DNA from: Siphonodentalium dalli
Lineage: Eukaryota; Mollusca; Scaphopoda; Gadilida; Siphonodentaliidae
Assembly: GCA_032622095.1 (NCBI GenBank)
Contig: CP136067.1
Span: 134,791,990 to 134,855,989, forward strand
DNA: 64,000 nt
Direction of reading: 5' to 3'
A program made the translations under genes and the position numbers. How positions within the stretch are numbered: the stretch's first letter is position 1; each line of letters opens with the position of its first letter. The notes below the pieces were generated by a model. The model was not told the origin of the DNA. It was given only the letters and a program-made list of their open reading frames with translations, and did not search any database. Below are positions 1,712-45,249 of the stretch, one piece after another.

Positions 1712-2090
1712 AGCAAAACACCCAAGAACGTGGAGATTTATTTGGGAGAGTGATTCGAGATGTTACACTGTAAAACGAAAGCTTGAAGCAAAACACTCAA
1801 CAACGTGGATATTTATTTGGAAGAGTGGTTCGCGACGTTTCACTGTAAAACGAAAGCTTGAAGCAAAGCACTCAACAACGTGGAGATTTATTTGGGAGAG
1901 TGATTCGAGAAGTTCCACTGTAAAACGAAAGCTTGAAGCAAAACACTCAACAACGTGGAGATTTATTTGGGAGAGTGATTCGAGACGTTCTACTGTAAAA
2001 CGAAAGCTTGAAGCAAAACACTCAACAACGTGGAGATTTATTTGGGAGAGTGATTCGCGACGTTCCACTGTAAAACGTAAGCTTGATTGT
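1712..2090. repeat. 75-bp minisatellite, about five copies
   Basis: A 75-bp unit (containing ACTCAACAACGTGGAGATTT, TTGGGAGAGTGATTCG and CACTGTAAAACGAAAGCTTG) is repeated about five times with few differences. Because 75 is divisible by three, the minus strand stays open for 114 codons as a 25-residue protein repeat. I read that as a by-product of the period, not a gene. Confidence 0.85.
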
Positions 2091-11971: not shown

Positions 11972-12085
11972 CTCTGGACAAAAATTTAATGAGATCATAT
12001 CAAAGACACGGTACGCTAGTTTGGTCGCTTCCTTGTTGAATTCTCTGAAAGTTTCCTCGAATTTCTCAGCTTCGTGTGGCCAAGT
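11972..12085 (-). CDS. 2OG-Fe(II) dioxygenase exon 4, copy A
   Basis: A 114-bp exon, phase 0 at both ends, 38 codons. The acceptor is TTACTTTTTGCAG and the donor GTAAGA. It encodes a helical segment beginning TWPHEAEKFEETF and ending DMISLNFCPE. That matches the family pattern in which W-P precedes a helix (E-x-x-F-x-x-T-F-x-x-F/Y) linking the N-terminal DIOX_N region to the jelly-roll core. Exon 3A (19748-19814) splices into it in frame, and it splices into exon 5A in frame. The two base changes I see against exon 4B are both synonymous. Confidence 0.85.
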
Positions 12086-12164
12086 CTGCAAAAAGTAATT
12101 TAAAATACGTTTTCAGTCCAGCTGTCCTAAATCCTGATCAAAATCAAATGGTAAAGATACAAGA

Positions 12165-12241
12165 GCGTAGAGTCGTCACATCATTTTAGTTAGTAATCTT
12201 TTTAAACAGATTACTAACTAAAATGATGTGGCGCTCTACGC
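12165..12241. repeat. Short foldback hairpin, copy A
   Basis: About 34-bp arms (GCGTAGAG...CACATCATTTTAGTTAGTAA and its inverse) around an ~8-bp loop. The arms match almost perfectly. It lies in intron 3, 80 bp upstream of exon 4A, so on the minus-strand transcript it would form a hairpin near the acceptor. Also present in copy B (32914-32990). Confidence 0.9.
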
Positions 12242-12731
12242 TTCCGTACAAATACCCATGCAAGTGTCGTTTAATATTGAGAGAAATTATGTGTAATGTG
12301 AATATAACTGCAACCTCTATAAGGACAGCAAAACAATAACAAGTTTTCAACGTTGGAAAAATAAATATTATCGATATAGCATATGATGAATCCCTACTCT
12401 ACTAGAAAGCTCCAAAACAGAGTTCAGTCCCCTCGCTACGCTATGTCTGAGCTCTGCCGGCGTGTTTATTTTCTTTATTAAATCTAACATTTTTTTGTTG
12501 AAGTGTTTTGTCAGTTACAATTCATTCTGGCTTGATCTAGACAATTTTCAAATGAATATAGACAGTTCAGTTTCTCAGAATAATGCAGAATGAACTGTAA
12601 CCTACAATCTTCTCAAATAAATAAATGAGTGATTTCTTCACATTAAGTGCAGGTGCTGACAGCGGTAAGTCATGCGTAACAGGGGACTGAACTGTGCATG
12701 GAGCTTGCTCTACTGGCTACAGGGTGTAGCC

Positions 12732-14590: not shown

Positions 14591-14688
14591 AGAGGAGACA
14601 TTCGTGGCATGATACATCCTCTCCAATGAGAATTGCGTGAGTCTTTCAACCGAAATCATGTCCATGTAGTTGTGAACGTTGATCATTA

Positions 14689-14694
14689 TACAAC
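14689..14694. other. Empty Polinton target site
   Basis: TACAAC is present once here in copy A. In copy B the same hexamer flanks the mini-Polinton on both sides (33575-33580 and 38283-38288). This proves the element's ends and its 6-bp target duplication. Confidence 0.95.
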
Positions 14695-14933
14695 CATGTG
14701 CATACCTGTATTTACTATACAAACTATTGGCTGATAAATTACTACACCAGAACTCACGACTAAATTTTCCATCTGAAATCCCCAAATGTTGTGGAGACAT
14801 TATATATTTTAACTGCTGGCAATTTTTGTCCAGACTATAGCTGAATCTATAGATATAGATTGAATAGGTGCACGCAATTGTATTGATACGTGATTGATAT
14901 ATAGCTATTTTAATAACAAGACAGAGTTATCTG

Positions 14934-15115
14934 GGGCTCCCGGTGGCTCAGTATGTAAGGATAGGTTTGCATAGCGCATAAGGCTAACATAAGCCGTAGG
15001 GCGATGGCGAAACTGGTTTTACATGCAATCCCAATAAGCAAGAGTGTCGCCCCTAACCCCCAGAATCACGAATACCAGATAAAATGGAGGGCTGAATCCT
15101 GCGTACCAGATAAGA
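14934..15115. repeat. Possible tRNA-like SINE head, copy A
   Basis: GGTGGCTCAGTATGTAAGG resembles an RNA polymerase III A box, and a weak B-box-like GGTTTTACATGCAATCC follows about 65 bp later. The downstream part holds diverged versions of the satellite monomers (CACGAATACCAGATAAAATGG, GAATCCTGCGTACCAG). Copy B: 38525-38706. This is a weak call. Confidence 0.3.
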
Positions 15116-15288
15116 TACAATACAATGCAAGTGATAGATATTCCACACAAATATGATCATTTTCACACATTTGCTGATGTAATGGTCAAACTTTCAACAT
15201 AATAAGATGTACGATACTGAATTACATCAAACTATGCCTTTTGGCTAAGAAACAATCAAATGTTGAATACATGGTGCTATAAAAGCTG

Positions 15289-17602
15289 AGCCCTGAATAC
15301 CGGTTAAAATGGACATATGAATCCTGAATACCGGTTAAAATGGGCATATGAATCCTGAATACCGGTTAAAATGGGCATATGAATCCTACGTACCATTTAT
15401 ACAAAAGAGGGTTAGGAATCCTGAATACCGGTTAAAATGGGCATATGAATCCTACGTACCATTTATACAAAAGAGGGGTAGGAATCCTGAAAACCGGTTA
15501 AAATGGGCATATGAATCCTACGTACCATTTATACAAAAGAGGGGTAGGAATCCTGAATACCGGTTAAAATGGGTATATGAATCCTACGTACCATTTATAC
15601 AAAAGAGGGGTAGGAATCCTGAATACCGGTTAAAATGGGCATATGAATCCTACGTACCATTTATACAAAAGAGGGATAGGAATCCTGAATACCGGTTAAA
15701 ATGGGTATATGAATCCTGAATACCGGTTAAAATGGACATATGAATCCTACGTACCATTTATACAAAAGAGGGGCAGGAATCCTGAATACCGGTTAAAATG
15801 GGCATATGAATCCTACGTACCATTTATACAAAAGAGGGTTAGGAATCCTGAATACCGGTTAAAATGGGCATATGAATCCTACGTACCATTTTTACAAAAG
15901 AGGGGTAGGAATCCTGAATACCGGTTAAAATGGGCATATGAATCCTACGTACCATTTTTACAAAAGAGGGGTAGGAATCCTGAATACCGGTTAAAATGGG
16001 CATATGAATCCTACGTACCATTTATACAAAAGAGGGGTAGGAATCCTGAATACCGGTTAAAATGGGCATATGAATCCTACGTACCATTTATACAAAAGAG
16101 GGGTAGGAATCCTGAATACCGGTTAAAATGGGCATATGAATCCTACGTACCATTTATACAAAAGAGGGGTAGGAATCCTGAATACCGGTTAAAATGGGTA
16201 TATGAATCCTGAATACCGGTTAAAATGGACATATGAATCCTACGTACCATTTATACAAAAGAGGGGTAGGAATCCTGAATACCGGCTAAAATGGACATAT
16301 GAATCCTACGTACCATTTTTACAAAAGAGGGGTAGGAATCCTGAATACCGGTTAAAATGGACATATGAATCCTACGTACCATTTATACAAAAGAGGGGTA
16401 GGAATCCTGAATACCGGCTAAAATGGACATATGAATCCTACGTACCATTTTTACAAAAGAGGGGTAGGAATCCTGAATACCGGTTAAAATGGGCATATGA
16501 ATCGTACGTACCATTTATACAAAAGAGGGGTAGGAATCCTGAATACCGGTTAAAATGGGCATATGAATCCTGAATACCGGTTAAAATGGGCATATGAATC
16601 CTACGTACCATTTATACAAAAGAGGGGTAGGAATCCTGAATACCGGTTAAAATGGGTATATGAATCCTACGTACCATTTATACAAAAGAGTGGTAGGAAT
16701 CCTGAATACCGTTTAAAATGGGCATATGAAGCCTGAATACCGGTTAAAATGGGCATATGAATCCTGATTACCGGTTAAAATGGACATATGAATCCTACGT
16801 ACCGTTTATACAAATGAGGGGCAGGAATCCTGAATACCGGTTAAAATGGACATATGAATCCTATGTACCATTTATACAAAAGAGGGGTAGGAATCCTGAA
16901 TACCGATTAAAATGGACATATGAATCCTACGTACCATTTATACAAAAGAGGGGTAGGAATCCTGAATAACGGTTAAAATGGACATATGAATCGTACGTAC
17001 CATTTATACAAAAGAGGGGTAGGAATCCTGAATACCGGTTAAAATGGGCATATGAATCCTGAATACCGGTTAAAATGGGTATATGAATCCTGAATACCGG
17101 TTAAAATGGGCATATGAATCCTGAATACCGGTTAAAATGGGCATATGAATCCTGAATACCGGTTAAAATGGGTATATGAATCCTGAATACCGGTTAAAAT
17201 GGGCATATGAATCCTGAATACCGGTTAAAATGGGCATAATTATGAATCGTACGTACCATTTATACAAAAGAGGGGTAGGAATACTGAATACCGGTTAAAA
17301 TGGGCATACGAATCCTACGTACCATTTATACAAAAGAGGGGTAGGAATCCTGAATACCAGTTAAAATGGGCATATGAATCCTACGTACCATTTATACAAA
17401 AGAGGGTTAGGAATCCTGAATACCGGTTAAAATGGGCATATGAATCCTACGTACCATTATACAAAAGAGGGGTAGAAATCCTGAATACCGGTTAAAATGG
17501 GCATATGAATCCGAGGGGTAGGAATCCTGAATACCGGTTAAAATGGCACATGAATCCCGAGTACCATTTATACAAAAGTGGGGTAGGAATCCTGAATACC
17601 GA
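15289..17602. repeat. 66-bp two-monomer satellite, short array (copy A)
   Basis: Tandem array of a 66-bp unit made of two related monomers: a 31-bp one (GAATCCTGAATACCGGTTAA plus AATGGGCATAT) and a 35-bp one (GAATCCTACGTACCATTTAT plus ACAAAAGAGGGGTAG). A run of 31-bp monomers alone sits at about 17030-17230. Because 66 is 3 x 22, long ORFs appear on both strands; they are not called as genes. Diverged relics flank the array on both sides (15060-15115 and 17590-17715). Confidence 0.96.
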
Positions 17603-17649
17603 TTAAAATGAGCATACATGTATATATGAATCCCGAGAATCAGTTAACA

Positions 17650-21390: not shown

Positions 21391-23760
21391 CAGGGGTGGC
21401 ACCAGAAAATACCCGACAGGGGAGCTGTGCTCCCCGACAGGGGGGCTACACAAATTACACCATATTGCCTGTTGGTATGTGAAATGAGCGACATATTGTG
21501 TGTGGCGAACCAATGAACAAAACCATATTGAAGTAATTATAGTCTCTTAGCTGGAGCTTGGAGAATTATAATAGATCTGCAGTTGCTTATGGTTGATGAA
21601 CATTATCACATATGTAAATAATAACACATATATTATGGTGGTGTCAATTAAACTTGAATTAAGGCTTCGCCACACTAATATTTGACCTGAGACAAGTCAG
21701 TGCTATGATAATTAAATTTCTTTTAAATTATTGCCAATATTGGCACATGTGATACATCAAACTGGCCGTATATCTACATGTTTGCATTAGCTTATATATA
21801 ACAGTGATATTTTAGCTTAATGTATTGTTGCGAGGAACTGCATGTATTTGACATATTGGTTAGTGTTAAGTGATCCTATTTTAAATATAAAAAACATGTC
21901 TTACTGATGGGCCATCATGTCACGATGACACTCATATCCACCCCAGTAGGCCTATTGTGCATGTATTGTGATAATGGTGTCAAAGTCGGGGAAATTCATG
22001 CAATGATATAAGGTCGTGGGCCATGCACTCATGTGTTAAACGCATGCTTTACATGCATATACAGTTAATTGGGTAAATGAAAATGTGCTTACCTGAAGTT
22101 AGCTCCTATATGTGCACACGAAGTTTGAACAAAACACGGTTAATCCATAATAAGAAACACACACACAATGAAATTCTGTACACTTTTGTCAATTTGTCTC
22201 TATATACATATGACATCTGAAGTTTGTTCACAAGTTCACAATCTATATATACATGTATCATTTAACAAATGACACAATGGTGGTTAGTTCCACGGTAGTA
22301 ACAGAAGTTATATCGAAATTCTGCACTTTGGGAATTTCGCCTTAAACATATTAATAACGACATCCAAGTCAATCCTGCTGCCACGTTCTCGGTGGATTCC
22401 TAACATCATCACACTGTCCAAACGCTGATCCTTCATCACAGATCGGAGATCATTTTTTATCAGTCGCATTGAACTAAAGTTTCTTTCACACTCTGCTGTG
22501 GACACAGGCAATATACATGCAATCGTAGCAATGCGTTCTAGCTCGAAAAATGCTTCTCTTGATTTTACCAAATAAGATCTTAATTGGAGCAGGCTGGTCG
22601 GTTGTTGTTCTTTTGGTTTTCTTTGAATCGTGCGCTTCAATGTAGCTATTTCACATGTGAGTGCATCTGTGTCTGAGTCAAACAATTTAGCAAACTCCAC
22701 AAGCAATGCTGTATCCAGGTAAACTTGAGAACTAGGACATAAAGCTGTTATTCCTTTCATCATTGAAATATTGTTATTGTCAAATCTTTTTTCCAGTTCG
22801 GCGTTAACCCTGTCTATAATTTGATACACATCTTGTACATATGCATCAAACCCAACTTCGGTTCGCTTTCCGATAGTGCTCTCCACGACAAAGTCTCGAA
22901 GACCCAATGGTGGTGTTACCTTTCTAGTAGGGCGGGCATTCTCAGGTAAATTTAATTTGGTGGAGACCGCTTCTGCTGCATTCCAAAATTCTTGACATGT
23001 GTCTCTTGTGCGACAGTCGTTAACTTCACTTTTCAAAGTGGCAATTAATTCGACAGCATTAGTTAGGTCGTTGGTAGCTTTCTGTAACATATCAGATGCA
23101 AATTTAGCTTTCTTTAGAATGTGTTTGATTACAGCTAGGTATCGAACAAAGCGGCGGTCTATCTGGAGCATGAATCCAGTGGCTTCGGTTATCCGTTCTG
23201 GTTTGTCGTCGTTATCTATGACATCCTGCAGCACTTCATACACGATGTCCAAATGTTTCCAAATGACATTAAACTGTTTGGCCTGACATGACCATCGGGT
23301 GTCGGACACCTTCCCAACTTCAACTTTCTTCCTTTTATGCAGTTCTAATTTGTTGACCCATCTCACATGAACAGTGCTGCTGCTTATAAATGAATGAAGC
23401 TCCTTGAAGAGCGATATCATGTCGGCTACGCATTTTACATCAGTGACAACATCAACTATCACCAGATTCAGTATGTGGCAAAAGCAGTGAACATAGTACG
23501 CCATTTTGGATCCAGTTTTCTCTGGATTTATTTTATTAACTCCGTTCAAATGCCCGGAAACAACTGCTGCTCCATCGTAACCCTGTCCAACACAATAAGT
23601 GGTCATGTTGGCATCGACTCTCTGTAGCCTTCGAATGATTGTTTCAGAAAGTCCATCAGCATCTAAAGAGTCTGCTTCAGCCACGCCAATAAACTCCTCG
23701 TGAATTGCATTCTCAAAACAGTAACGCACTGCCACAACAACCTGCTCCTTGTGGCCTGTA
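21391..23760 (-). mobile_element. hAT transposon, cut by duplication break (copy A)
   Basis: The left end is CAGGGGTGGC, preceded by GTTCGATC, as in the complete copy at 48467-52722. The element stops abruptly at 23760, inside the transposase gene, where copy B of the duplication begins. It keeps one extra subterminal CCCCGACAGGGG-type repeat (21408-21440) that the complete copy lacks. Confidence 0.93.
22308..23760 (-). pseudogene. hAT transposase, C-terminal part (copy A)
   Basis: An open 475-codon frame covering the C-terminal half of a hAT-superfamily transposase of the ZMYM1-like type. Visible parts are the CVGQGYDGA block with the second catalytic Asp, the DTRWS motif of the RNase-H-like/helical domain, and the C-terminal dimerisation block with CERNFSSMRLIKNDLR, which carries the last catalytic Glu. 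The N-terminal zinc fingers and first catalytic Asp are missing because the tandem duplication break lies upstream. No start codon context belongs to it. It is complementary to copy B, which has the front but a shifted end. Not functional alone. Confidence 0.93.
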
Positions 23761-30878: not shown

Positions 30879-32720
30879 GTTGGATGTGTATGCAGAACAA
30901 GCTACGTGTCGGTGCCTGCTTGTTGCAGCACCTCGGTGTTGGAATTTTGTCCTGCCATTTTATTCCTAGCGCATGTCAGTATACGAGTATGATTAAACAG
31001 TCACCAATAGCGTACACCATATGCATTGCGTACTGTCGCCTGTTTCCGTTTGCGGGGAGGCTTCGCAAGAGGTTTCACTTCTAATCACACGTATCAATAG
31101 AGTCCATGGCCACCGTGATCTGCGAGGGTCTCGTTTCTCTTCCAGCTGATGGGTTTCCACAGTCACAAATGTGAGTTTAAGCATACATGTACACGAGATT
31201 AGTGGTTTCCCAGAAAGATTCAAGAATCAATTGAATCTTTCGAACACCATTAACACATATTAACACAAAGTGATACATGTGTCTCATGGTTTTTCATCAG
31301 AGTTGTGTTCAGCTATATTGATCCATACAAGCGTTCAAAACAGTAAGATTACCGATGTTATTACCCCCAAACAACAAAATACACAAACAGGAGAAGCATC
31401 TGGTGTTACTCATATTTTATTTGAACGTGTTTTAATAACTAGATTTCAATAACATTTATTACATGATCTTACCATTATTCCATTCAATAAACCATTCTAT
31501 AAATTGTGATGTGCAACGATCGTTGCATAACAGGAAATAGTGCCAAGTTTACCAAAATGAATGTATTATTGTTCCGCAAACGTGACCTTTGTCTTCCGGT
31601 TTGTCGTCTGTTTATGCTATGTCTCAAAATAATATGGGTCCAATAATCTTCCAACAAACTCTGATGAATGAAGAGTTTGAAAAGTTATTAAATTTTCATT
31701 AAATTTACGCCATTACATACGTTCAAGAGTCTTTATTTATCTGGGACTATTTCTTTACGCGGACAGACAACGCAAAGTTACGTGAAACGTCACCTCACCC
31801 TTCATAGAAGCCAGAAAACTCGTCCAGTAAATTAGGTCTGGACCTCGTCACATATTGCAGCTGAAAAATGCATTGTTCTGAAAATATTAATGGTACACAA
31901 TCCGATTCGATGGTGCCCATATCATCAGATTCCAACAACTTCAACATTTCATGAAATTCCGCTTCAGCTATCAAAAATCTATTAATTGCCAAAACAAAAC
32001 AATAATGCTAACCACTGTGAACTATAGTATAAAATTGCCCAAAAAGTGTTATATAGATCAACATTTTGTTCAACGCAATTTGGTATCGAGAGTATGTCGG
32101 TCGACGGTCGTCGTAATTTTTCCAGGCCGCCAAATATTCGAGGTGGTGAAAATAACAGAATTAATAACTCGAAATATGATAACTCTGGGCTTTGATGGGT
32201 GGGTTCCTCGACTCAAATATAATGTGTTTTACCCCCCGAAACGAAGAAATAGTAACAAAGGGATAAATCGGATTATGCATATTTAACATATTTCTTGTCT
32301 CAGTTCGTGGGAAGTAGTTCGCAATTACATAATATCTTGTTGACTGATTTCTGGCACACAATTGTTTTATACACCCGAAGCAGCAAAACAGTTCCAGGAA
32401 GAGATATAACACCATTAACCCCTTCTTTACTGAAAACTCATTGGTGAGTAGTCGTCCTAGAAAATGTTCATATAATAAGTTCAACAAACAGCCATATTTG
32501 CTGAACGTATTACCTGAACATTTCCCTCCAACAACTTGGACTCCTTCTGCACTTTTAATATCTGTCGTCTGCTTATTTTTCCTGAAAATTCATTCATATT
32601 AGATGAGCAATATACCATTCAAATGTAGGCGTTTGTAACTGGGTGGGAGAATCCATTTAATATAGAAAGGGTGAACGTAACTATATACAAGATAATAATT
32701 ATACGTAACTAAAATCTCAC

Positions 32721-32834
32721 CTCTGGACAAAAATTTAATGAGATCATATCAAAGACACGGTACGCTAGTTTGGTCGCTTCCTTGTTGAATTCTCTGAAAG
32801 TCTCCTCGAATTTCTCAGCTTCGTGCGGCCAAGT
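32721..32834 (-). CDS. 2OG-Fe(II) dioxygenase exon 4, copy B
   Basis: A 114-bp exon, phase 0/0, donor GTGAGA (GTAAGA in copy A), acceptor TTCGCAG (TTGCAG in copy A). It encodes the same 38 residues as exon 4A, beginning TWPHEAEKF and ending LNFCPE. Two third-position changes are silent. Intron 3 upstream of it contains the mini-Polinton and the 5.7-kb satellite array, so the intron spans 32835-46682. Confidence 0.85.
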
Positions 32835-32913
32835 CTGCGAAAAGTTTAAAATAATACGTTTTCAGTCCAGCTGTCCTAAATCCTGATCAAAATCAAATGG
32901 TAAAGATACAAGA

Positions 32914-32990
32914 GCGTAGAGTCGTCACATCATTTTAGTTAGTAATCTTTTTAAACAGATTACTAACTAAAATGATGTGGCGCTCTACGC
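32914..32990. repeat. Short foldback hairpin, copy B
   Basis: Same hairpin as 12165-12241, again about 80 bp upstream of exon 4. Confidence 0.9.
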
Positions 32991-33580
32991 TTCCGTACAA
33001 ATACCCATGCAAGTGTCGTTTAATATTGAGAGAAATTATGTGTAATGTGAATATAAAAGCAACCTATATAAGGGCAATAAAACAATAACAAGTTTTCAAC
33101 GTTGGAACAATAAATATTACACCCCTCTCGATATATGATGAATCCCTACTCTACTAGAAAGCTCCAAAACAGTCCCCTCGCTACGCTATGTCTGAGCTCT
33201 GCCGGCGTGTTTACTTTCTTTATTAAATCTAACATTTTTTTGTTGAAGTGTTTTGTCAGTTACAATTCATTCTGGCTTGATCTAGACAATTTTCAAATGA
33301 ATATAGACAGTTCAGTTTCTCAGAATAATGCAGAATGAACTGTAACCTACAATCTTCTCAAATAAATAAATGAGTGATTTCTTCACATTAAGTGCAGGTG
33401 CTGACAGCGGTAAGTCATGCGTAACAGGGGACTGAACTGTGCATGGAGCTTGCTCTTTTGGCTACGGGGCGTAGCCAGAGGAGACATTCGTGGCATGATA
33501 CATCCTCTCCAATGAGAATTGCGTGAGTCTTTCAACCGAAATCATGTCCATGTAGTTGTGAACGTTGATCATTATACAAC

Positions 33581-33853
33581 AGTAGTATTGTCTACCCTTT
33601 CGGGTAGATGGTTTGATCATGATTTGCTCCCCTCCTGTTCCTGTGCCATCAGGGGATTATAGGTCACGCCGCGTGGGTGTATATATCGGTGAAGGTTATC
33701 GCCATAATAATCGTGGCGGGTACCACTAGGTCAAGGACGAACAAAATATTTCCGCAACAAGTGAGCGACGGTTATCACGAGAATAACGCGTGATCGGGGG
33801 ACCAGTACGTGTAGGTTATATATATCTATTCGGCCAAGGTTATCACCATAATA
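33581..33853 (+). repeat. Polinton left terminal inverted repeat
   Basis: 273 bp, matching the inverse of 38010-38282 with about two mismatches. It begins with a small hairpin (TCTACCC TTTC GGGTAGA) ten bases in. Confidence 0.96.
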
Positions 33854-34080
33854 CGTCTAGGTCCCGGGCAAACAAATCGGCGAAGGTTATCACGAGAATA
33901 GCGCGTGATCACGGGTGTATATATCTAGGTCACGGGTAAACGATATATTCCGTAACAAATCGGCGAAGGTTATCACGACATTAGCGCGTGAACGGGGGGC
34001 GTATGCGTCTAAGTTATAGGCAAACAACAATTTTCGCAACAACTCGGTCAAGGTTATCACGAGAATAACGCGTGATCGAC
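33770..34080 (+). repeat. Polinton subterminal iterons
   Basis: Four direct copies of GGTTATCACGAGAATAACGC followed by GTGATC or a variant start at 33770, 33885, 33968 and 34052, spaced 115, 83 and 84 bp. Each is preceded by a CAACAA(g/atcgg/ctcgg) stretch. The right TIR carries the inverse of the first. Such regular subterminal repeats suggest binding sites for a replication or integration protein; this is inference. Confidence 0.75.
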
Positions 34081-34159
34081 AAACAGCACTTCAGTTACAA
34101 CAACTCGGTTAATGAGATAAGCACGCCGCAACAAGGTCACACACTACAGTAACACGTCT

Positions 34160-34167
34160 TATATAAA
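34160..34167 (+). promoter_or_regulatory. Candidate TATA box for the rightward Polinton genes
   Basis: TATATAAA lies 89 bp before the ATG at 34256, outside the inverted repeat and just after the iterons. It would serve the first ORF and possibly the closely following kinase. Confidence 0.5.
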
Positions 34168-34255
34168 TCCCCCCCAGCATCAAAAGTAGTACAGCTAACA
34201 ACGTATTATCATAGCGGCTATCATCACAAAGGGGAAGATATTATATAGAAGATAA

Positions 34256-34660
34256 ATGAAAGCCGTTCGAGTAACCGAATTATTAGCCGATATCGCTGAT
34301 AAAAAGATCCCTATGCTATATATTGGTACTATAAAAGGAAAATATAACGCGGTTATATTACGAGCATATATAATAGATCAAAGAATAAAGAATAATACCA
34401 AGAAAGCAAAGGCCAACACTCTATATCGACCGGCTATTCTGCGTCAAAAAAGAAAAACCGCGGTATCAACCCAGCAATATAGCGTACTATCAAAAGTATC
34501 AAGGAGGCGCAAACAAATTATTCAACCCAGAACAGACATATATCCGGAAAAAGAACCTATAATGGATAATATAGCATCACCGGAGGACCAACCAGATCTA
34601 TACTGGGACGTTATACCGGATATAGATACAAAATTACCTTTTACCGAAATTTTTATATGA
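34256..34660 (+). CDS. Polinton ORF, unknown basic protein
   Basis: 134 residues, not recognised. The first ~45 residues look folded (MKAVRVTELLADIADKKIP, then alternating hydrophobics LYIGTIKGKYNAVILRAYI). The middle is strongly basic with RQKRK and SRRRKQ clusters, a possible nuclear localisation or DNA-binding tract. The end is acidic and proline-rich. No membrane span or zinc motif. It is the first ORF after the left TIR, 18 bp ahead of the kinase, so the two may share a transcript. The start is the first ATG after the TATA box. Function unknown. Confidence 0.7.
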   Translation: MKAVRVTELLADIADKKIPMLYIGTIKGKYNAVILRAYIIDQRIKNNTKKAKANTLYRPAILRQKRKTAVSTQQYSVLSKVSRRRKQIIQPRTDIYPEKEPIMDNIASPEDQPDLYWDVIPDIDTKLPFTEIFI

Positions 34661-34678
34661 TTCTAGGAGGGAAACAAA

Positions 34679-35341
34679 ATGGAAGGAAGTAAATACACAG
34701 TGTGCGTAGAAGGCAATATAGGGGCGGGAAAAACGACTTTCCTTAGTTATTTTCAAGAGGATCCGCGAGTGAGTATAAACGCGGAACCTGTTGAACGATG
34801 GAGGAATATAGGAGGCGTCAACGCTTTGGAATTAATGTATACGAACGCAAAAAGGTGGGCAATGACGTTTCAATCCTACGTTCAATTGACGTCTACCGAA
34901 CGCCACAAACAAGAAACTACCGAGCCGATAAAAATTATGGAAAGGTCACTATACAGCGGACATTATATATTTACAGAAAATATGTTTCGAAGCGGCAACC
35001 TGACCGAAATAGAATATAATATTTTGACGGAATGGTTCGTGTCCCTTTTGGAAAACTCGTATATAAAAGCCGACCTTATTATATATTTACGAACAAAACC
35101 GCAAGTTGTCGCTGACAGGATTAAAACACGAGCCAGAAAGGAGGAAGAGACGATAAATTTGGAATATATTCAATCGCTTCACCAATTGCACGAGGAATGG
35201 CTTATAAAACAAACAAAGTTTTTAGTACCGGCTCCCGTTATCATACTCGATGGTAACGTAAATGCGGCAGAGATGAAAAATATTATCCGACGTAATATAG
35301 ACAGAATTTTATGCGGGTATTCCGAAACCTCGCAAAAATAA
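34679..35341 (+). CDS. Deoxynucleoside kinase carried by the Polinton
   Basis: 220 residues, full length for the dNK/TK2/dCK-type family, intact and intronless. The P-loop GNIGAGKTT is at residues 12-20. EPVERW at 36-41 fits the substrate-site Glu-x-Val-x-x-Trp. The ERS motif (the family's D/E-R-S) is at 88-90, after IMERSLYSG. The LID arginines lie in RARKEEE at 151-157, followed by the conserved L-x-Y-x-x-x-L-H-x-x-x-E-x-W helix at 161-174. It should phosphorylate deoxynucleosides with ATP, raising dNTP precursors for element replication in non-dividing cells. The role in the element is inference; the enzyme family is certain. It is not a spliced host gene in place, and capture from a host or large DNA virus is likely. 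Confidence 0.95.
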   Translation: MEGSKYTVCVEGNIGAGKTTFLSYFQEDPRVSINAEPVERWRNIGGVNALELMYTNAKRWAMTFQSYVQLTSTERHKQETTEPIKIMERSLYSGHYIFTENMFRSGNLTEIEYNILTEWFVSLLENSYIKADLIIYLRTKPQVVADRIKTRARKEEETINLEYIQSLHQLHEEWLIKQTKFLVPAPVIILDGNVNAAEMKNIIRRNIDRILCGYSETSQK

Positions 35342-35399
35342 ATACTTATAAGAAAATGCGAGGGCAGTACACCCGTCAGTTCCCTAATCACTTCGTGCC

Positions 35400-35660
35400 A
35401 TGGATGACGTTGACACCATAGAGAGAGCGACGTCCAACAGGTCGACTAAATGGGATTGGATGGGTAGAGAAATTTCTCGAGCGCAAATTGTATATTTCTG
35501 CCAGGTAACCGTTATTATGATAGTGATCGTCGTAAGCTTGGTAAATCTAAGTGCAGGAATAAATCAGACGGCGTTCTGGACGAGATTAGTAAGCGGATGC
35601 CTGGGTTATATGCTACCGGCCCCGTCTATACAACGCACCGTCGACGTACAACCTAATTAG
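35400..35660 (+). CDS. Polinton small two-span membrane protein
   Basis: 86 residues. A short acidic and polar N-terminus (MDDVDTIERA, then a KWDWMGREIS segment) precedes a strong hydrophobic span at about 28-52 (IVYFCQVTVIMIVIVVSLVN). A second, weaker span is at about 58-74 (FWTRLVSGCLGYMLPAPS). This layout resembles the small conserved membrane protein found next to structural genes in adintovirus/Polinton genomes, but I assign that from general memory of the pattern only. It lies 58 bp after the kinase on the same strand. Role unknown; a virion-membrane or membrane-penetration role is speculative. Confidence 0.72.
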   Translation: MDDVDTIERATSNRSTKWDWMGREISRAQIVYFCQVTVIMIVIVVSLVNLSAGINQTAFWTRLVSGCLGYMLPAPSIQRTVDVQPN

Positions 35661-35745
35661 GAAGTTCTATATATAACATACCCGCTATAACGCTGAGCGG
35701 GAGGTAATCTGGATAAAAACCGGTTCGAGCCAGTTCAGCTACCGG

Positions 35746-35753
35746 TATATAAA
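35746..35753 (+). promoter_or_regulatory. Candidate TATA box for the PC4-like gene
   Basis: TATATAAA lies 46 bp before the ATG at 35799. A CGGTTCGAGCCAGTTCAGCT stretch precedes it. The spacing suits a separate promoter with a very short leader. Confidence 0.55.
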
Positions 35754-35798
35754 GGAAGAACGTTTAGTATATTCTGTTATTTTATCCAGGGAACAAAA

Positions 35799-36554
35799 AT
35801 GTTTTACCTCGGTAGAGATATTTACGCAGACGTGTCGTCCTACGAGGGTATAGTGAATGTACATCTAAGGAAATATTATTCGCAAGATGGAACACTTAAA
35901 CCTTCTAAAACCGGGATCAGTCTGCATATCGGAGAATACGAAATTCTTAAAGCGAACTTAGCCGTTATTGAATACGAAATTCACAGTCGTATTCAAGGAA
36001 TAGACGGGACGGAAACGGATATGATTTATTTAGGAAGGGACAGATATATCAACGTTTGTATTTACGCGGGATGTACCCTAATACATATCCGCAAGTTTTA
36101 TCGAAACGACGGAAATCTCAACCCGTCATCGTACGGAATCACTCTCAAAACTAAAGAATTGGACGAATTGAAGAAGAATATGCAGAATATAGATCAAAGT
36201 ATAAAGGAACAGGAAGAGCTATTAACACCCGTTCCGGCCACACACTGTGACGATCTACGTGGAATGTTAATTACCATTTACGCCGAACTGGTTCGAAAGC
36301 AATTACGCGTTGAAGTGGAAAAAACTTGTTACGGCTGTATAAATAACAGACCCAGCCAAAACGATCACGACGTGTGTTTACAGCCGAACCAAATGTGGCC
36401 GGAGTTATTCGCTATCGCTTTCAATAGAACCGATGAAAGCGAGTTATTTCGTGTGTTTAAAGACGAAGCCAAAAACATTGAAAGGACGGTGACGTACGAA
36501 CAATTTCAAAATATCGTTATCACCGATTCTGATATTCGAAAAGAAGTACTCTGA
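35799..36554 (+). CDS. Tandem PC4-domain protein with Cys/His C-terminal domain
   Basis: 251 residues. Two repeats of the PC4/p15 coactivator fold are visible: residues 3-55 (YLGRDIYADVSSYEG, HLRKYY, DGTLKPSKTGISL) and 76-128 (YLGRDRYINVCIYAG, HIRKFY, DGNLNPSSYGITL). PC4 domains dimerise and bind single-stranded DNA; two in one chain could form that unit within a single protein. The C-terminal ~100 residues hold CYGC at 177-180 with H190 and C193, a possible zinc site. Likely an ssDNA-binding or transcription factor of the element. Its 3' end lies next to the deletion junction with polB, but the stop codon is normal. Confidence 0.82.
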   Translation: MFYLGRDIYADVSSYEGIVNVHLRKYYSQDGTLKPSKTGISLHIGEYEILKANLAVIEYEIHSRIQGIDGTETDMIYLGRDRYINVCIYAGCTLIHIRKFYRNDGNLNPSSYGITLKTKELDELKKNMQNIDQSIKEQEELLTPVPATHCDDLRGMLITIYAELVRKQLRVEVEKTCYGCINNRPSQNDHDVCLQPNQMWPELFAIAFNRTDESELFRVFKDEAKNIERTVTYEQFQNIVITDSDIRKEVL

Positions 36555-36608
36555 TGTTTATGAACACGTATCCCGAACACTGAACTAGGGGCTATCGGAT
36601 ATGTACAA

Positions 36609-36632
36609 CAAAAAAAAAACAAACAAAAAAAC
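36609..36632. other. A-rich deletion junction inside the Polinton
   Basis: A run of A with few C lies between the stop of the PC4-like gene and the broken 3' end of polB. Several kilobases normally present in Polintons are missing at about this point. Whether the A tract was templated or copied from RNA cannot be told. Confidence 0.55.
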
Positions 36633-36639
36633 AGAATAT

Positions 36640-37957
36640 GCATATGCTCGCCGATAGCGTCGAAGGGAATATCGGTGTTGCAGAAAATCGGGGACATTTC
36701 AGCGAAATATTCGCGAGGATCATCGTTCTTTCCGAACAGCGCGAAGTTCGCTTCGTTTTCACGCGCGGCACGAAAGGCCAATTGCCTGGCGATTCCGGGT
36801 ACTGATATAGCGGTTTTGAAGACGTCGATATTTTGATCGAAATAAAAAGTTTGCAAACGTTCGACCGCAGTCACGAAGGGTTTGACGTCTCTGTTGTTGT
36901 ACCATACCAGAAAGTCTTTAAAGGTCGACATGCCTTCAGTTTCCCACACGAGCTGACAGTAAGCGTAGTCGGCTTCGCTGATATTTGATTTTGACATCGA
37001 GTTGTAGAAGGCTTCGTGAGGCGGTAGTCGCTTCGCATTCAACTTGTCGATATCGTCAAAAAAGTCGTAGGGAAAGAAGCCTTTCGTTTCTTTGACGTCG
37101 TACGCCTTGAGGAATTTCACGTAAGACGAACCCGGCGACAGGTAATAAGATATATCGAGGAATTTGAGTCGCTTAGAAGCTATACACATGTACGAGTTGT
37201 TCTTCTTGACCACGAAAACTCGCTCCTCATCGTGTAAGTTCAAATATCTGGCTAGGCAAATCTTAATCAAATTCAAGTCATAGTTTGATGAGTTAAATCC
37301 CAAGACGGGGACTTGAGACATATATTGAGAGAATTTGCCGAGTAAACTACTTAAGGTTGTGTGCTTCTTCCTCTTCTTCTTACCGCCGTCTTCGTCATCA
37401 TCATCATCCTCATCATCATCATCATTATCATCATCATCATCATCATCATCATTCTCAGCCTTCATTTTCTCGTTAATTTCTTGCACCACCCAACCCCATT
37501 TATCCTCCGCCAACTCAGAGACGGTCGCGTATATCTCGTACATAGAAGCCACCATACATTCCACAAGAGTATTAGTGTCGGGTTCCACTATACAGAAAGG
37601 TTCGGTATGTCCTTCGATATTACTGCAGATAGATACGCTTACGGGTACGTGTTTCTGAATCCATTCCAGATTCTGACCGGGCTTGTCATTGTCCACCTTT
37701 TGAAGCAGCGACTCGTAATCGAAACAAATAAACCACGGATATATTCGCTCGTTCTTCGGTACGTGTATGCCTTGTTGTTCCAACTGGACGAAGATGCTTT
37801 CGAAATCCTTGTAAAAACCACCGGGATATACGAACTCCGTCTGGTTGACGCAAATTACTTGGTGTCGTCGTAAGTCACGAGCTTTCGGAAAGTGGCGATC
37901 GCAGTTCACGCATTGGTACTTGCTCGCATATTGAGGGAAATTCTTTATATACATCAT
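36640..37957 (-). pseudogene. Protein-primed PolB, exonuclease part only
   Basis: About 430 residues of a Polinton-type family B DNA polymerase. A C2HC zinc finger (C16, C19, H32, C36) is followed by the YPGGFY segment. The 3'-5' exonuclease motifs are ExoI FDYE at 79-82, ExoII NSSNYD at 221-226 and ExoIII YNNRDV at 352-357. All exonuclease acidic residues are present. The palm motifs (SLYP, KxY, D-T-D) are gone; the frame runs from the polB remnant into the A-rich junction and ends at 36506. Between ExoI and ExoII, residues 169-189 are almost all Asp/Glu, encoded by an ATC repeat at about 37394-37453. It cannot polymerise DNA. A free exonuclease or dominant-negative product is conceivable but unproven. 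Confidence 0.9.
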
Positions 37958-38009
37958 GTGATTTTCGTGAATATTGACGTATAGGGTTATACGCGCGTCG
38001 TTTATGCGC

Positions 38010-38282
38010 TATTATGGTGATAACCTTGGCCGAATAGATATATATAACCTACACGTACTGGTCCCCCGACCACGCGTTATTCTCGTAATAACCGTCGCTC
38101 ACTTGTTGCGGAAATATTTTGTTCGTCCTTGACCTAGTGGTACCCGCCACGATTATTATGGCGATAACCTTCACCGATATATACACCCACGCGGCGTGAC
38201 CTATAATCCCCTGATGGCACAGGAACAGGAGGGGAGCAAATCATGATCAAACCATCTACCCGAAAGGGTAGACAATACTACT
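38010..38282 (-). repeat. Polinton right terminal inverted repeat
   Basis: 273 bp, the inverse of 33581-33853. The near identity of the two ends points to a young insertion. Confidence 0.96.
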
Positions 38283-38524
38283 TACAACCATGTGCATACC
38301 AGTCTTTACTATACAAACTATTGGCTGATAAATTACTACACCAGAACTCACGACTAAATTTCCCATCTGAAATCCCCAAATGTTGTGGAGACATTATATA
38401 TTTTAACTGCTGGCAATTTTTGTCCAGACTATAGCTGAATCTATAGATATAGATTGAATAGGTGCACGCAATTGTACTGATACGTGATTGATATATAGCT
38501 ATTTTAATAACAAGACAGAGTTAT

Positions 38525-38706
38525 CTGGGGCTCCTGGTGGCTCAGCATGTAAGGATAGGTTTGCATAGCGCATAAGGCTAACATAAGCCGTAGGGCGATG
38601 GCGAAACTGGTTTTACATGCAATCCCAATAAGCGAGAGTGTCGCCCCTAACCCCCAGAATCACGAATACCAGATAAAATGGAGGGCTGAATCCTGCGTAC
38701 CAGATA
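38525..38706. repeat. Possible tRNA-like SINE head, copy B
   Basis: Same sequence as 14934-15115, with A-box-like GGTGGCTCAGCATGTAAGG. Weak call. Confidence 0.3.
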
Positions 38707-38883
38707 AGATACAATACAATGCAAGTGATAGATATTCCACACAAATATGATCATTTTCACACATTTGCTGATGTAATGGTCAAACTTTCAACTTAATAAG
38801 AGGTACGATACTGAATTACATCAAACTATGCCTTTTGGCTAAGAAACAATCAAATGTTGAATACATGGTGCTATAAAAGCTGA

Positions 38884-41800
38884 GTCCTGAATACCGGTTA
38901 AAATGGACATATGAATCCTGAATACCGGTTAAAATGGGCATATGAATCCTGAATACCGGTTAAAATGGGCATATGAATCCTACGTACCATTTATACAAGA
39001 GGGTTAGGAATCCTGTATACCGGTTAAAATGGGCATATGAATCCTACGTACCATTTATACAAAAGAGGGATATAGGAATCCTGAATACCGGTTAAAATGG
39101 GCATATGAATCCTACGTACCATTTATACAAAAGAGGGGTAGGAATCCTGAATACCGGTTAAAATGGGTATATGAATCCTACGTACCATTTATACAAAAGA
39201 GGGGTAGGAATCCTGAATACCGGTTAAAATGGGCATATGAATCCTACGTACCATTTATACATAAGAGGGGTAGGAATCCTGAATACCGGTTAAAATGGGT
39301 ATATGAATCCTGAATACCGGTTAAAATGGACATATGAATCCTACGTACCATTTATACAAAAGAGGGGTAGGAATCCTGAATACCGGTTAAAATGGGCATA
39401 TGAATCCTGAATACCGGTTAAAATGGACATATATGAATCCTACGTACCATTTATACAAAAGAGGGTTAGGAATCCTGAATAGCGGTTAAAATGGGCATAT
39501 GAATCCTACGTACCATTTATACAAAAGAGGGGTAGGAATCCTGAATAGCGGTTAAAATGGGCATATGAATCCTACGTACCATTTATACAAAAGAGGGGTA
39601 GGAATCCTGAATACCGGTTAAAATGGGTATATGAATCCTACGTACCATTTATACAAAAGAGGGGTAGGAATCCTGAATACCGGTTAAAATGGGCACATGA
39701 ATCCTGAATACCGGTTAAAATGGGCATATGAATCCTACGTACCATTTATACAAAAGAGGGGTAGGAATCCTGAATAGCGGTTAAAATGGGCATATGAATC
39801 CTACGTACCATTTATACAAAAGAGGGGTAGGAATCCTGAATACCGGTTAAAATGGGTATATGAATCCTACGTACCATTTATACAAAAGAGGGGTAGGAAT
39901 CCTGAATACCGGTTAAAATGGGCATATGAATCCTGAATACCGGTTAAAATGGGCATATGAATCCTACGTACCATTTATACAAAAGAGGGGTAGGAATCCT
40001 GAATACCGGTTAAAATGGGCATATGAATCCTACGTACCATTTATACAAAAGAGGGGTATGAATCCTGAAAACCGGTTAAAATGTGCATATGAATCCTACG
40101 TACCAATTATACAAAAGAGGGGTAGGAATCCTGAATACCGGTTAAAATGGGTATATGATTCCTACGTACCATTTATATAAAAGAGGGGTAGGAATCCTGA
40201 ATACCGGTTAAAATGGGCATATGAATCCTACGTACCATTTATACAAAAGAGGGATAGGAATCGTGAATACCGGTTAAAATGGGCATATGAATCCTACGTA
40301 CCATTTATACAAAAGAGGGGTAGGAATCCTGAATACCGGTTAAAATGGGAATATGAATCCTGAGTACCGGTTAAAATGGACATATGAATCCTACGTACCA
40401 TATATACAAAAGAGGGGTAGGAATCCTGAATACCGGTTAAAATGGGCATATGAATCCTGAATACCTGTTAAAATGGACATATGAATCCTACGTACCATTT
40501 ATACAAAAGAGGGGTAGGAATCCTGAATACCGGTTAAAATGGGCATATGAATCCTACGTACCATTTATACAAAAGAGGGGTGGGAATCCTGAATACCGGT
40601 TAAAATGGGCATATGAATCCTACGTACCATTTATACAAAAGAGGGGTAGAAATCCTGAAAACCGGTTAAAATGGGCATATGAATCCTACGTACCATTTAT
40701 ACAAAAGAGGGGTAGGAATCCTGAATACCGGTTAAAATGTGTATATGAATCCTACGTACCATTTATACAAAAGAGGGTTAGGAATCCTGAATACCGGTTA
40801 AAATGGGCATATGAATCCTACGTACCATTTATACAAAAGAGGGGTAGGAATCCTGAATACCGGTTAAAATGGGTATATGAATCCTGAATACCGGTTAAAA
40901 TGGACATATGAATCGTACGTACCATTTATACAAAAGAGGGGTAGGAATCCTGAATACCGGTTAAAATGGGCATATGAATCCTACGTACCATTTATACAAA
41001 AGAGGGGTAGGAATCCTGAATACCGGTTAAAATGGGTATATGAATCCTACGTATCATTTATACAAAAGAGGGGTAGGAATCCTGAATACCGGTTAAAATG
41101 GGCATATGAATCCTACGTACTATTTATACAAAAGAGGGGTAGGAATCCTGAATACCGGTTAAAATGGGCATATGAATCCTACGTACCATTTATACAAAAG
41201 AGGGGTAGGAATCCTGAATACCGGTTAAAATGGGCATATGAATCCTGAATACCGGTTAAAATGGACATATGAATCCTACGTACCATTTATACAAAAGAGG
41301 GGTAGGAATCCTGAATACCGGTTAAAATGGGTATATGAATCCTGAATACCGGTTAAAATGGACATATGAATCCTACGTACCATTTATACAAAAGAGGGGT
41401 AGGAATCCTGAATACCGGTTAAAATGGGCATATGAATCCTGAATTCCGGTTAAAATGGACATATGAATCCTACGTACCATTTATACAAAAGAGGGGTAGG
41501 AATTCTGAATACCGGTTAAAATGGGCATATGAATCCTGAATACCGGTAAAAATGGACATATGAATCCTGATTACCGGTTAAAATGGACATATGAATCCTA
41601 CGTACCGTTTATACAAAAGAGGGGCAGGAATCCTGAATACCGGTTAAAATGGACATATGAATCCTATGTACCATTTATACAAAAGAGGGGTAGGAATCCT
41701 GAATAACGGTTAAAATGGACATATGAATCGTACGTACCATTTATACAAAAGAGGGGTAGGAATCCAGAATACCGGTTAAAATGGACATATGAATCGTACG

Positions 41801-44540
41801 TACCATTTATACAAAAGAGGGGTAGGAATCCTGAATACCGGTTAAAATGGGCATATGAATCCTGAATACCGGTTAAAATGGGTATATGAATCCTGAATAC
41901 CGGTTAAAATGGGCATATGAATCCTGAATACCGGTTAAAATGGGCATATGAATCCTGAATACCGGTTAAAATGGGCATATGAATCCTGAATACCGGTTAA
42001 AATGGGCATATGAATCCTGAATACCGGTTAAAATGGGCATATGAATCCTGAATACCGGTTAAAATGGGTATATGAATCCTGAATACCGGTTAAAATGGGT
42101 ATATGAATCCTGAATACCGGTTAAAATGGTCATATGAATCCTGAATACCGTATAAAATGGGCATAATTATGAATCGTACGTACCATTTATACAAAAGAGG
42201 GGTAGGAATCCTGAATACCGGTTAAAATGGGCATATGAATCCTACGTACCATTATACAAAAGAGGGGTAGGAATCCAGAATACCGGTTAAAATGGACATA
42301 TGAATCCTACGTACCATTTATACAAAAGAGGGGTAGGAATCCTGTATACCGGTTAAAATGGCACAAGAATCCCGAGTACCATTTATACAAAAGAGGGTTA
42401 GGAATCCTGAATACCGGTTAAAATGGGCATATGAATCCTACGTACCATTTATACAAAAGAGGGTTAGGAATCCAGAATACCGGTTAAAATGGGCATATGA
42501 ATCCTACGTACCATTTATACAAAAGAGGGGTAGGAATCCTGTATACCGGTTAAAATGGCACAAGAATCCCGAGTACCATTTATACAAAAGAGGGTTAGGA
42601 ATCCTGAATACCGGTTAAAATGGACATATGAATCCTACGTACCATTTATACAAAAGAGGGTTAGGAATCCAGAATACCGGTTAAAATGGGCATATGAATC
42701 CTACGTACCATTTATACAAAAGAGGGGTAGGAATCCTGTATACCGGTTAAAATGGCACAAGAATCCCGAGTACCATTTATACAAAAGAGGGTTAGGAATC
42801 CTGAATACCGGTTAAAATGGGCATATGAATCCTACGTACCATTTATACAAAAGAGGGGAATGAATCCTGCATACTGGTTAAAATGGGCATATGAATCCTA
42901 CGTACTATTTATACAAAAGAGGGGTAGGAATCCTGAATACCGGTTAAAATGGCACAAGAATCCCGAGTACCATTTATACAAAAGAGGGTTAGGAATCCTG
43001 AATACCGGTTAAAATGGGCATATGAATCCTACGTACCATTTATACAAAAGAGGGGAATGAATCCTGCATACTGGTTAAAATGGGCATATGAATCCTACGT
43101 ACTATTTATACAAAAGAGGGGTAGGAATCCTGAATACCGGTTAAAATGGGTATATGAATCCTACGTACCATTTATACAAAAGAGGGGTGGAATCCTGAAT
43201 ACCGGTTAAAATGGGCATATGAATCCTACGTACCATTTATACAAAAGAGGGGTAGGAATCCTGAATACCGGTTAAAATGGGTATATGAATCCTGAGTACC
43301 GGTTAAAATGGACATATGAATCCTACGTACAATTTATACAAAAGTGGGGTAGGAATCCTGAATACCGGTTAAAGTGGGCATATGAATCCTGAATACCGGT
43401 TAAAATGGACATATGAATCCTACGTACCATTTATACAACAGAGGGGTAGGAATCCTGAATACCGGTTAAAATGGGCATATGAATCCTACGTACCATTTAT
43501 ACAAAAGAGGGGTAGGAATCCTGAATACCGGTTAAAATGGGCATATGAATCCTGAATACCGGTTAAAATGGACATATGAATCCTACGTACCATTTGTACA
43601 AAAGAGGGGTAGGAATCCTGAATACCGGTTAAAATGGGTAGATGAATCCTACGTACCATTTATACAAAAGAGGGGTAGGAATCCTGAATACCGGTTAAAA
43701 TGGGCATATGAATCCTGAATACCGGTTAAAATGGGCATATGAATCCTGATTACCGGTTAAAATGGACATATGAATCCTACGTACCGTTTATACAAAAGAG
43801 GGCAGGAATCCTGAATACCGGTTAAAATGGACATATGAATCCTATGTACCATTTATACAAAAGAGGGGTAGGAATCCTGAATACCGGTTAAAATGGGCAT
43901 ATGAATCCTACGTACCATTTATACAAAAGAGGGGTAGGAATCCTGAATACCGGTTAAAATGGGCATATGAATCCTGAATACCGGTTAAAATGGGTATATG
44001 AATCCTGAATACCGGTTAAAATGGGCATATGAATCCTGAATACCGGTTAAAATGGGCATATGAATCCTGAATACCGGTTAAAATGGGTATATGAATCCTG
44101 AATACCGGTTAAAATGGGCATATGAATCCCGAATACCGGTTAAAATGGACATAATTATGAATCGTACTTACCATTTATACAAAAGAGGGGTAGGAATACT
44201 GAATACCGGTTAAAATGGGCATACGAATCCTACGTACCATTTATACAAAAGAGGGGTAGGAATCCTGAATACCAGTTAAAATGGGCATATGAATCCTACG
44301 TACCATTTATACAAAAGAGGGTTAGGAATCCTGAATACCGGTTAAAATGGGCATATGAATCCTACGTACCATTATACAAAAGAGGGGTAGGAATCCTGAA
44401 TACCGGTTAAAATGGGCATATGAATCCTACGTACCATTTATACAAAAGAGGGGTAGGAATCCTGAATACCGGTTAGAATGGCACACGAATCCCTTGTACC
44501 ATTTATACAAAAGTGGGGTAGGAATCCTGAATACCGATTA
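38884..44540. repeat. 66-bp two-monomer satellite, long array (copy B)
   Basis: Same 31 + 35-bp monomers as copy A, with identical left and right edges, but about 5.7 kb against 2.3 kb. Runs of 31-bp monomers alone are at about 41840-42150 and 43960-44150. A 197-bp higher-order repeat is at 42340-43000, marked by a variant unit with GCACAAGAATCCCGAGTACC near 42360, 42557, 42754 and 42951; the first two and last two copies pair by shared variants. In-frame ORFs up to 145 codons result from the period. Confidence 0.96.
42340..43130. repeat. 197-bp higher-order repeat in the satellite
   Basis: Four successive blocks with a strict 197-bp period, each three 66-bp units less one base, marked by the GCACAAGAATCCCGAG variant. 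Blocks 1-2 share CCAGAATACC and blocks 3-4 share CCTGCATACTGG, so the growth appears stepwise. Confidence 0.88.
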
Positions 44541-45249
44541 AAATGAGCATACATGTATATATGAATCCCGAGAATCAGTTAACAGAGGGATGTGAATCCT
44601 GCGTACCGCCTTGAAGTGACCTGAATCCCGCGTACCAAAAGAGGGGGGTGATACCATCATAAGCGCGGAATTTATAATCAAATCACATGGAAGTTAACCT
44701 GGTCCGTGTGGCTGGACAAGTGTATCAGTTATATTACGGGAGCCAGTGTATTCCACGTGAAGTGGCTTGATTTGCAAGTGACAGTAACCATCTCCCCTAA
44801 TACAATAACCATGCATGGACGTGGCTATAGGGTTCTCTTGGGGGGGGTCGGTCCACATAGAAATTTCGAACTGCAACCACCATGAGCCAGCCCAAACTAC
44901 CAGATTCACATGATATGCACCTCTTTGATCGGAACTTTACAACTGACACTATCTTTCATAATGTTAGAAATTTTAAACATGACCCCCCCCCCCTAAGGTT
45001 GGAATATCTAAGTTCGAGGCCATTTCAGACCAAACCTTTGATCAAAAGTCGAAAAATTCGCTACTTCATGTTGATCTGAAAACAACAAATTCACCACTAA
45101 TTACTGTTTGGAAAATCAGACAATGAGAATAGGCTCAACCTATATGTGGTGTAAAATTGCAGTCATGGAGATAATAATCGACGCCGTGATAAATTATGGA
45201 ATAGCTGATAAAATGACGATATACAACAATAAACCAATCATACAGTACC

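Follow-up and report, generated by a model that had tools for sequence, protein, structure and literature searches.

A stretch of 64,000 nucleotides from the scaphopod Siphonodentalium dalli (G000:C7:134791990-134855989, hereafter the window; genome of 2,226,750,531 bases in 9 contigs) contains a mini-Polinton at positions 33581-38282. With a length of 4702 bp, this element falls outside the 15-20 kb size of Polintons. Its terminal inverted repeats (TIRs) are 273 bp each and differ at two positions only (TIR positions 196 and 213), an identity of ~99% over 273 bp for which chance is excluded. Four open rightward open reading frames (ORFs) of 134, 220, 86, and 251 aa are followed by a leftward PolB fragment. 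The features are given below with coordinates in the window; pN/pS denotes the ratio of nonsynonymous to synonymous differences.

14689-14694, no strand: empty site, where TACAAC occurs only once, within the sister of the duplicated flank
33575-33580, no strand: left target site duplication (TSD), TACAAC, 6 bp (empty site at 14689-14694)
33581-33853, plus: left TIR, starting AGTAGTATTG, from self-comparison of the ends and comparison with other copies
34256-34660, plus: 134-aa ORF without a Pfam match; pN/pS 0.70-1.10 in five of six comparisons, the sixth lacking synonymous change
34679-35341, plus: deoxynucleoside kinase (dNK), 220 aa; PF01712, 7e-54; PDB relatives such as 6ybh and 1ot3
35400-35660, plus: 86-aa ORF with a hydrophobic stretch, putative membrane protein (by eye only)
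35799-36554, plus: 251-aa ORF; two stretches match PC4 (transcription coactivator p15; PF02229, 1.4e-22); also PC4 structures
36632-36639, no strand: junction 1, ~6.56 kb lost relative to copy E1, adjoining an A-rich tract
36639-36721, no strand: 83-bp remnant of the 3' half of PolB, 98.8-100% identical to other copies, in which ~762 bp separate it from the PolB block
36721-36722, no strand: junction 2, ~762 bp (254 codons) lost within PolB
36722-37988, minus: PolB fragment without the polymerase DTD motif
37988-37990, no strand: junction 3, ~4.0 kb lost between PolB and the right end, relative to copy E2
38010-38282, minus: right TIR; in other copies, the adjoining 20 bp (37990-38009) have their counterpart in the inner TIR
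38283-38288, no strand: right TSD, TACAAC, 6 bp

The unoccupied target of this insertion can be seen directly. A local duplication relates window positions 10257-15814 to 31001-39408 (at least), with ~97-100% identity in the matched pieces, and the joined flanks of the element align to 14.6-15.4 kb, where the left 105 bp are 100% and the right 1128 bp 98.2% identical to the sister. The TIRs with about two mismatches, the TACAAC duplication, and the empty site had been proposed in a first-pass annotation of this DNA, and all were reproduced by alignment; its assignment of the element to the Polintons also holds, given the 6-bp TSD and the long TIRs with AGT-type ends. That annotation had named an assembly error joining two Polinton ends as a possible refutation. 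Such an artefact is unlikely because other copies align collinearly with each of the three parts (left block, PolB block, and right end) and because the flanks fit the empty sister site.

As for coding capacity, ORF and Pfam scans bear out the proposal that four rightward frames are open and that the core is reduced to a PolB fragment. Both ends of the PolB ORF are cut off, and ~254 internal codons and the catalytic DTD motif are missing; the Pfam scan found no rve integrase, and no double-jelly-roll major capsid protein was found, among the ORFs of the element. The dNK gene is free of stops here and in six further gene copies from five elements. Its pN/pS is 0.09-0.18 in the six pairs that include the 4.7-kb element and 0.09-0.53 across all 21 pairs, the top value of 0.53 coming from two arms of one palindrome with three differences. 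For the PC4 ORF, values of 0.26-0.46 were obtained (10 pairs), and for the 86-aa ORF the changes are too few for a ratio. Excluded from these comparisons were, of six hits for the 134-aa ORF, two with an indel and one partial, and two partial hits each for the 86-aa and PC4 ORFs. The dNK ratios indicate purifying selection, which mostly reflects the history of the family and is no evidence of function after the deletion. Among relatives of the dNK, the best score belongs to P0121 (53%), whose longest contig, at 15.3 kb, is close to a Polinton in size.

The interior of the element holds three deletion junctions (36632/36639, 36721/36722, and 37988/37990), rather than the single one near 36.6 kb that had been expected. 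In the coordinates of copy E1, the element consists of 1-3067, 9624-9706, and 10469-11729, followed by the right TIR. Judged by eye, junctions 2 and 3 share a few bases at most. Their patterns occur once each in the 2.23-Gb genome (up to three mismatches allowed; reversed controls gave 0), and junction 1 is spanned by no other copy among the best 40 of 152 candidates scored. Many ~4.7-kb copies with the same junction, the proposed sign of an amplified family, were therefore not encountered, and an amplified 4.7-kb non-autonomous family was rejected, the internal junctions having been seen in no second copy. The competing proposal of a one-off deletion fits. The 4.7-kb element is a one-off defective Polinton derivative and not an amplified satellite.

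Longer relatives exist in this genome. Scoring the best 40 of 417 candidates in a search with the TIR gave 17 TIR pairs of 4.7-20.6 kb, including the 4.7-kb element; searches with the left-end genes (the payload; best 40 of 210 scored, full-length matches 91-99%) and with PolB (best 40 of 275 scored) gave 40 places each, which merge to 53 clusters. Payload and PolB are collinear in 22 of these, with a spacing of 7298-7521 bp in 13 and of 39 (the 4.7-kb element), 154, 2891, 3174, 5146, 6234, 6536, 7248, and 11584 bp in the other nine. The remaining clusters comprise two with a back-to-back PolB pair, one with back-to-back payloads, one with two PolB blocks and a payload, and 27 with a single block. 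The spacing of the 13 clusters, together with the flanking parts, points to a full-length class of ~16 kb; full-length relatives, the other thing to look for according to the first-pass annotation, thus appear to exist.

Relatives carry genes that the 4.7-kb element has lost. For example, copy E1 (20.6 kb) carries the payload genes plus a 368-aa integrase (rve 6.2e-10, chromo 7.1e-8) and a 213-aa ATPase-like ORF (Pox_A32 match, E 0.0054, below the Pfam cut-off). A 383-aa ORF of E1, whose relatives include a Pinctada 'Capsid protein', gave a model (pLDDT 89.1, pTM 0.89) with structural matches to the capsid proteins of SGIV, PBCV-1, Sputnik, and mavirus; it is predicted to fold like a double-jelly-roll major capsid protein. 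The PolB ORF of copy E3 (1289 aa, with the motif EMDTDSAY) shares 52-58% identity with four named proteins from bivalves (Tegillarca, Solemya, Mytilus, and Pinctada); Pfam gave no PolB match for this ORF itself, but several of its relatives carry PF03175. Scans of viral contigs with the PolB and capsid ORFs found no relative. Both long copies, E1 and E2, hold the payload genes themselves. A second mini-Polinton, X222 (C2:222499635-222505548; 5914 bp, TSD GTCATC), has the same four ORFs as the 4.7-kb element, all open. Identity with the deletion of the 4.7-kb element was considered and rejected, as the junctions differ (A3188/B653 and C820/C3650); X222 is a separate deletion event. Two further regions of the family deserve mention. 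In the right 3.6 kb (L004:201-3864 and matching right ends), neither E2 nor the left piece of E3 has an ORF of at least 100 aa, although this part aligns at ~90-96% between copies. In E1, ~4.6 kb between PolB and the right end (L002:2600-7200) has no match to reference blocks A-C.

Many of the relatives are palindromes. Twelve TIR-pair copies were fetched whole besides the 4.7-kb element, and in nine of them the inverted arms extend far past the TIR of ~330-350 bp. Two further palindromes were recognized by their ends (C7:12517851, 99.7% over 1.0 kb; C8:159677627, 99.4% over 1.0 kb), so that the inverted arms reach 1.0 kb or more in 11 of the 17 TIR pairs, and each of these 11 has an exact 6-bp TSD. 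Two borderline copies with 429-bp arms, C3:268912574 and C3:270082738, have the TSD CGTGTG in common and were taken as duplicates of one insertion. Exact 6-bp TSDs were found in 16 of the 17 other copies with both ends read (11 of the 12 whole-fetched copies plus five others; two of the 16 are the duplicates of one insertion). In the nine whole palindromes, the arms diverge by 0.13-0.93% (3-28 mismatches). On their face, only three of the 53 gene-content clusters are back to back; six of the single-PolB clusters are the palindromes E4, E7, E8, E9, E10, and E11. The non-palindromic, left-right copies are the 4.7-kb element, E1, E2, and E5.

Most of the whole palindromes are of the right-right type, consisting of an inverted right end, a loop, and the right half (E3, E4, E8, E9, E10, and E11, with arm deletions in several); the topology of E7 is more complex. 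E3 has arms of 7.6-7.7 kb and a loop of 186 bp. Short-loop turn-arounds lie at A8083/A8276 in E3, A8157/A8326 in C2:112178 (X112), and A8739/A8835 in E11. The turn-arounds of E3/E10 and C2:112178 fall in the short gap (L001:8000-8650) on which the capsid ORF and the leftward ORFs converge; this region, with runs of A, T, C, and G, is a possible fold-back hotspot. In E10, the 26-bp piece before A8083 is, by eye, the complement of A8276-8301, and this copy can be read as carrying the turn-around of E3 with one arm shortened. A genome-wide search with a 35-base pattern across the turn-around gave two places and no others, E3 (0 mismatches) and E10 (1 mismatch); the reversed control gave 0. The TSDs of E3 and E10 differ (ACTGCA and ACTGGG). 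The same turn-around stands at sites with different TSDs; therefore, the palindrome predates at least one integration, and one palindrome apparently moved as a palindrome.

How many fold-back events lie behind these copies was addressed with a tree of right ends. Its 33 rows are 14 left-right ends and 19 arms of symmetric copies, one of these arms belonging to the borderline C3:268. Eleven newly fetched ends were classed as left-right from cluster gene order, the exact end motif being present in 7 of 12 fetched stretches; stretch L032 (no match) and four short matches were left out. The right-right arms fall into tight clades (E11, E4+E8, E3+E7, C2:112+C7:125, and E9+E10), and C3:268 lies in a left-right clade. 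The palindrome label requires a minimum of 4 changes on the tree, at least 2 of them forced by supported branches, against a mean of 10.8 in shuffled data (bootstrap not fully settled). A single origin of all right-right palindromes is unsupported, as well-supported branches force at least two label changes; nor is there support for each palindrome having arisen independently.

Left-left copies form a second group (E6, E12, C8:159677627, and C5:236839-236852, the last with arms 98.9% alike over 1.6 kb and reaching A4292). The segment of E12 outside blocks A-C (L019:2262-3920) gave 21 matching clusters, with 14 inverted pairs, among the best 40 of 192 candidates scored. The centre of E6 matches at least 40 loci on both strands (best 40 of 383 scored), and the idea that it is a turn-around private to Polintons was rejected on this account. 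Three of three sampled loci are palindromic throughout the 5-6 kb fetched (99.46-99.65%). One complete example, element Q (C8:19558848-19573147), is a palindrome of 14,300 bp with ends TGATGATAACG and the TSD TGACAC. A probe from its arm found 17 inverted pairs and 6 single places at 98-100% (best 40 of 1104 candidates scored). Q contains one mirrored 206-aa ORF without a clear family, and its arms gave no match to 11 Polinton ORFs of the same genome or to the fetched proteins. The 6-bp duplication and the inner segment that Q has in common with AGTAGT-ended palindromes are its only ties to the Polintons.

Taken together, the 4.7-kb element retains both ends and the left-end genes and carries a fresh TSD; three deletions have deprived it of integrase, capsid, and polymerase function. 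It is best read, with a probability of roughly 0.75, as the defective descendant of a ~16-kb Polinton that was active recently, deletions and palindromes alike having arisen by template switching before integration. Under this mechanism, Polinton DNA would be copied outside the chromosome from protein-primed ends, and the polymerase would occasionally switch template. A forward skip would give deletions such as those of the 4.7-kb element, and fold-back onto the own strand would give palindromes. Any two-ended product could then be inserted in trans by the integrase of intact copies, and at least one palindrome (E3/E10) would subsequently have been replicated and transposed as such. It is further somewhat favoured that fold-back errors have become heritable parasites, which form extrachromosomally, integrate, replicate again, and spread, with the left-left palindromes that have an inner segment in common with the high-copy element Q as a second, strongly amplified case. 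Non-autonomous relatives that spread seem to exist, but as palindromes.

Several observations weigh against this interpretation. The TSD and TIRs of the 4.7-kb element are compatible with deletion either before or after integration, and neither free replicating DNA nor a transcript or virion was seen. Among the ORFs scanned with Pfam, there was no recognizable terminal protein or protease of the adenovirus type, and the ATPase match of the family stays under the cut-off. The sample of 17 pairs favours symmetric copies, as both ends needed to rank among the best 40 TIR hits, and E2 lacks an exact TSD. The tight clades would imply fewer fold-back events than palindromes. In an earlier set of 20 rows, own arms of copies with two arms differ by 0-0.63% and the nearest other element by 0.16-2.25%; for E3, E4, and E8, the distance from an arm to a sister element equals that to the partner arm or is smaller, by one to three changes, over the 630 bp compared. 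Such closeness fits palindromic lineages, without proof of separate origins, and counts mildly against one arm having been copied from its partner very recently.

For the 4.7-kb element alone, a full-length Polinton may have inserted at 33580 and lost its interior in place through host repair. The unique junctions and the kept TIRs and TSD fit this history equally well, and the joins, with little or no shared sequence by eye, resemble those of end joining. It nevertheless appears unlikely: three separate losses would be needed in a young insertion (2 of 273 TIR positions mismatched, near flanks 98-100% identical to the empty sister), and X222 kept the same gene set at another site with other junctions. 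The first-pass annotation had left the choice between a young deletion and a satellite contributing enzymes to its helper. The former stands, in view of the longer relatives and the open genes. The latter, in which a helper-dependent satellite would lend dNK and PC4 to intact Polintons, is very improbable, even though the payload ORFs are open, dNK retains its low pN/pS of 0.09-0.18 against the 4.7-kb element, and X222 retained the identical set of four ORFs; no second copy with the junctions of the 4.7-kb element was found, purifying selection was measured mostly along the lineages of other copies, and E1 and E2 own the payload genes, so that nothing need be lent.

With regard to the palindromes, an origin within the chromosome, by host inverted duplication or by gene conversion between the ends of an ordinary insertion, would also account for near-identical arms. 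The turn-around common to E3 and E10 at different TSDs, which makes the palindrome older than at least one integration, and the 7.6-7.7-kb arms of E3 around a 186-bp loop render it improbable, though not as remote as an artefact of assembly or sequencing. Fold-back chimeric reads are a familiar source of false palindromes; here, however, the arms differ by 3-28 mismatches in nine copies, all 11 palindromes have exact 6-bp TSDs, and the flanking stretches read are not mutually inverted, which leaves that explanation scarcely credible. Template switching before integration accordingly remains the preferred account.

Beyond the Polinton, the window contains tandem arrays of a 66-bp unit at 15292-17616 and 38881-44551. 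An ORF in these repeats matched the influenza PB2 family of Pfam; this match looks spurious and was taken as repeat noise. Three further ORFs were assigned by ORF and Pfam scans:

22308-23735, minus: hAT C-terminal dimerisation ORF, 475 aa
25827-28760, minus: reverse transcriptase ORF with endonuclease domain, 977 aa
49517-52267, minus: DUF4371 ORF, 916 aa

Among known systems, Polintons (Mavericks) share with the present family the 6-bp TSD and ends of the type AGTAGT...ACTACT, as given for vertebrate Mavericks in passages of PMC8097293. The long relatives are also alike in PolB, the rve integrase with chromodomain, and the double-jelly-roll capsid protein, whereas the 4.7-kb element has none of the core functions. 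The family differs by its dNK and double-PC4 genes and in that many copies are palindromic. Among the matches listed, covered by titles and abstract beginnings, no report of palindromic Polintons was found, and 'palindrom' is absent from the examined passages of PMC8097293 and PMC11071296. Searches combining Polinton with 'deoxynucleoside kinase' gave, in the literature covered, only work on algal viruses; few matches were obtained with 'thymidine kinase', and none with 'PC4' among the matches listed.

MITE-like deletion derivatives of DNA transposons likewise keep their ends, lose their interior, and are moved or movable in trans; the 4.7-kb element differs from such families in that no sibling with its junctions was found. 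The palindromic relatives resemble the copy-back or snap-back defective genomes of viruses, having one end inverted at the other, a single-copy loop, and, in most cases, a size below that of the parent. This topology is present in the palindromic relatives and not in the 4.7-kb element. In contrast to the viral forms, they are DNA integrated with target duplications; the viral class is also defined by replication that needs a helper and interferes with it. The yeast linear plasmid pGKL1 gives palindrome-hairpin derivatives and adenovirus gives symmetric variants, in both cases as free DNA molecules in culture. The parents there are protein-primed linear DNAs; here, the symmetric derivatives differ in being inherited insertions.

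The 4.7-kb element itself is ordinary for its kind; the family to which it belongs is not. The palindromes bear on the question whether Polintons in animals undergo free protein-primed replication or move as transposons only. Palindromic insertions with clean TSDs are hard to produce within a chromosome and easy to produce by fold-back on a displaced strand. They are therefore indirect evidence of a free replicative stage of Polintons. If the arms were identical at formation, their divergence would provide a clock for each event. The family also offers a testable case of defective genomes turning into chromosomal parasites and, if this is true, the chromosomes of this animal would hold a record of the defective genomes of Polintons.

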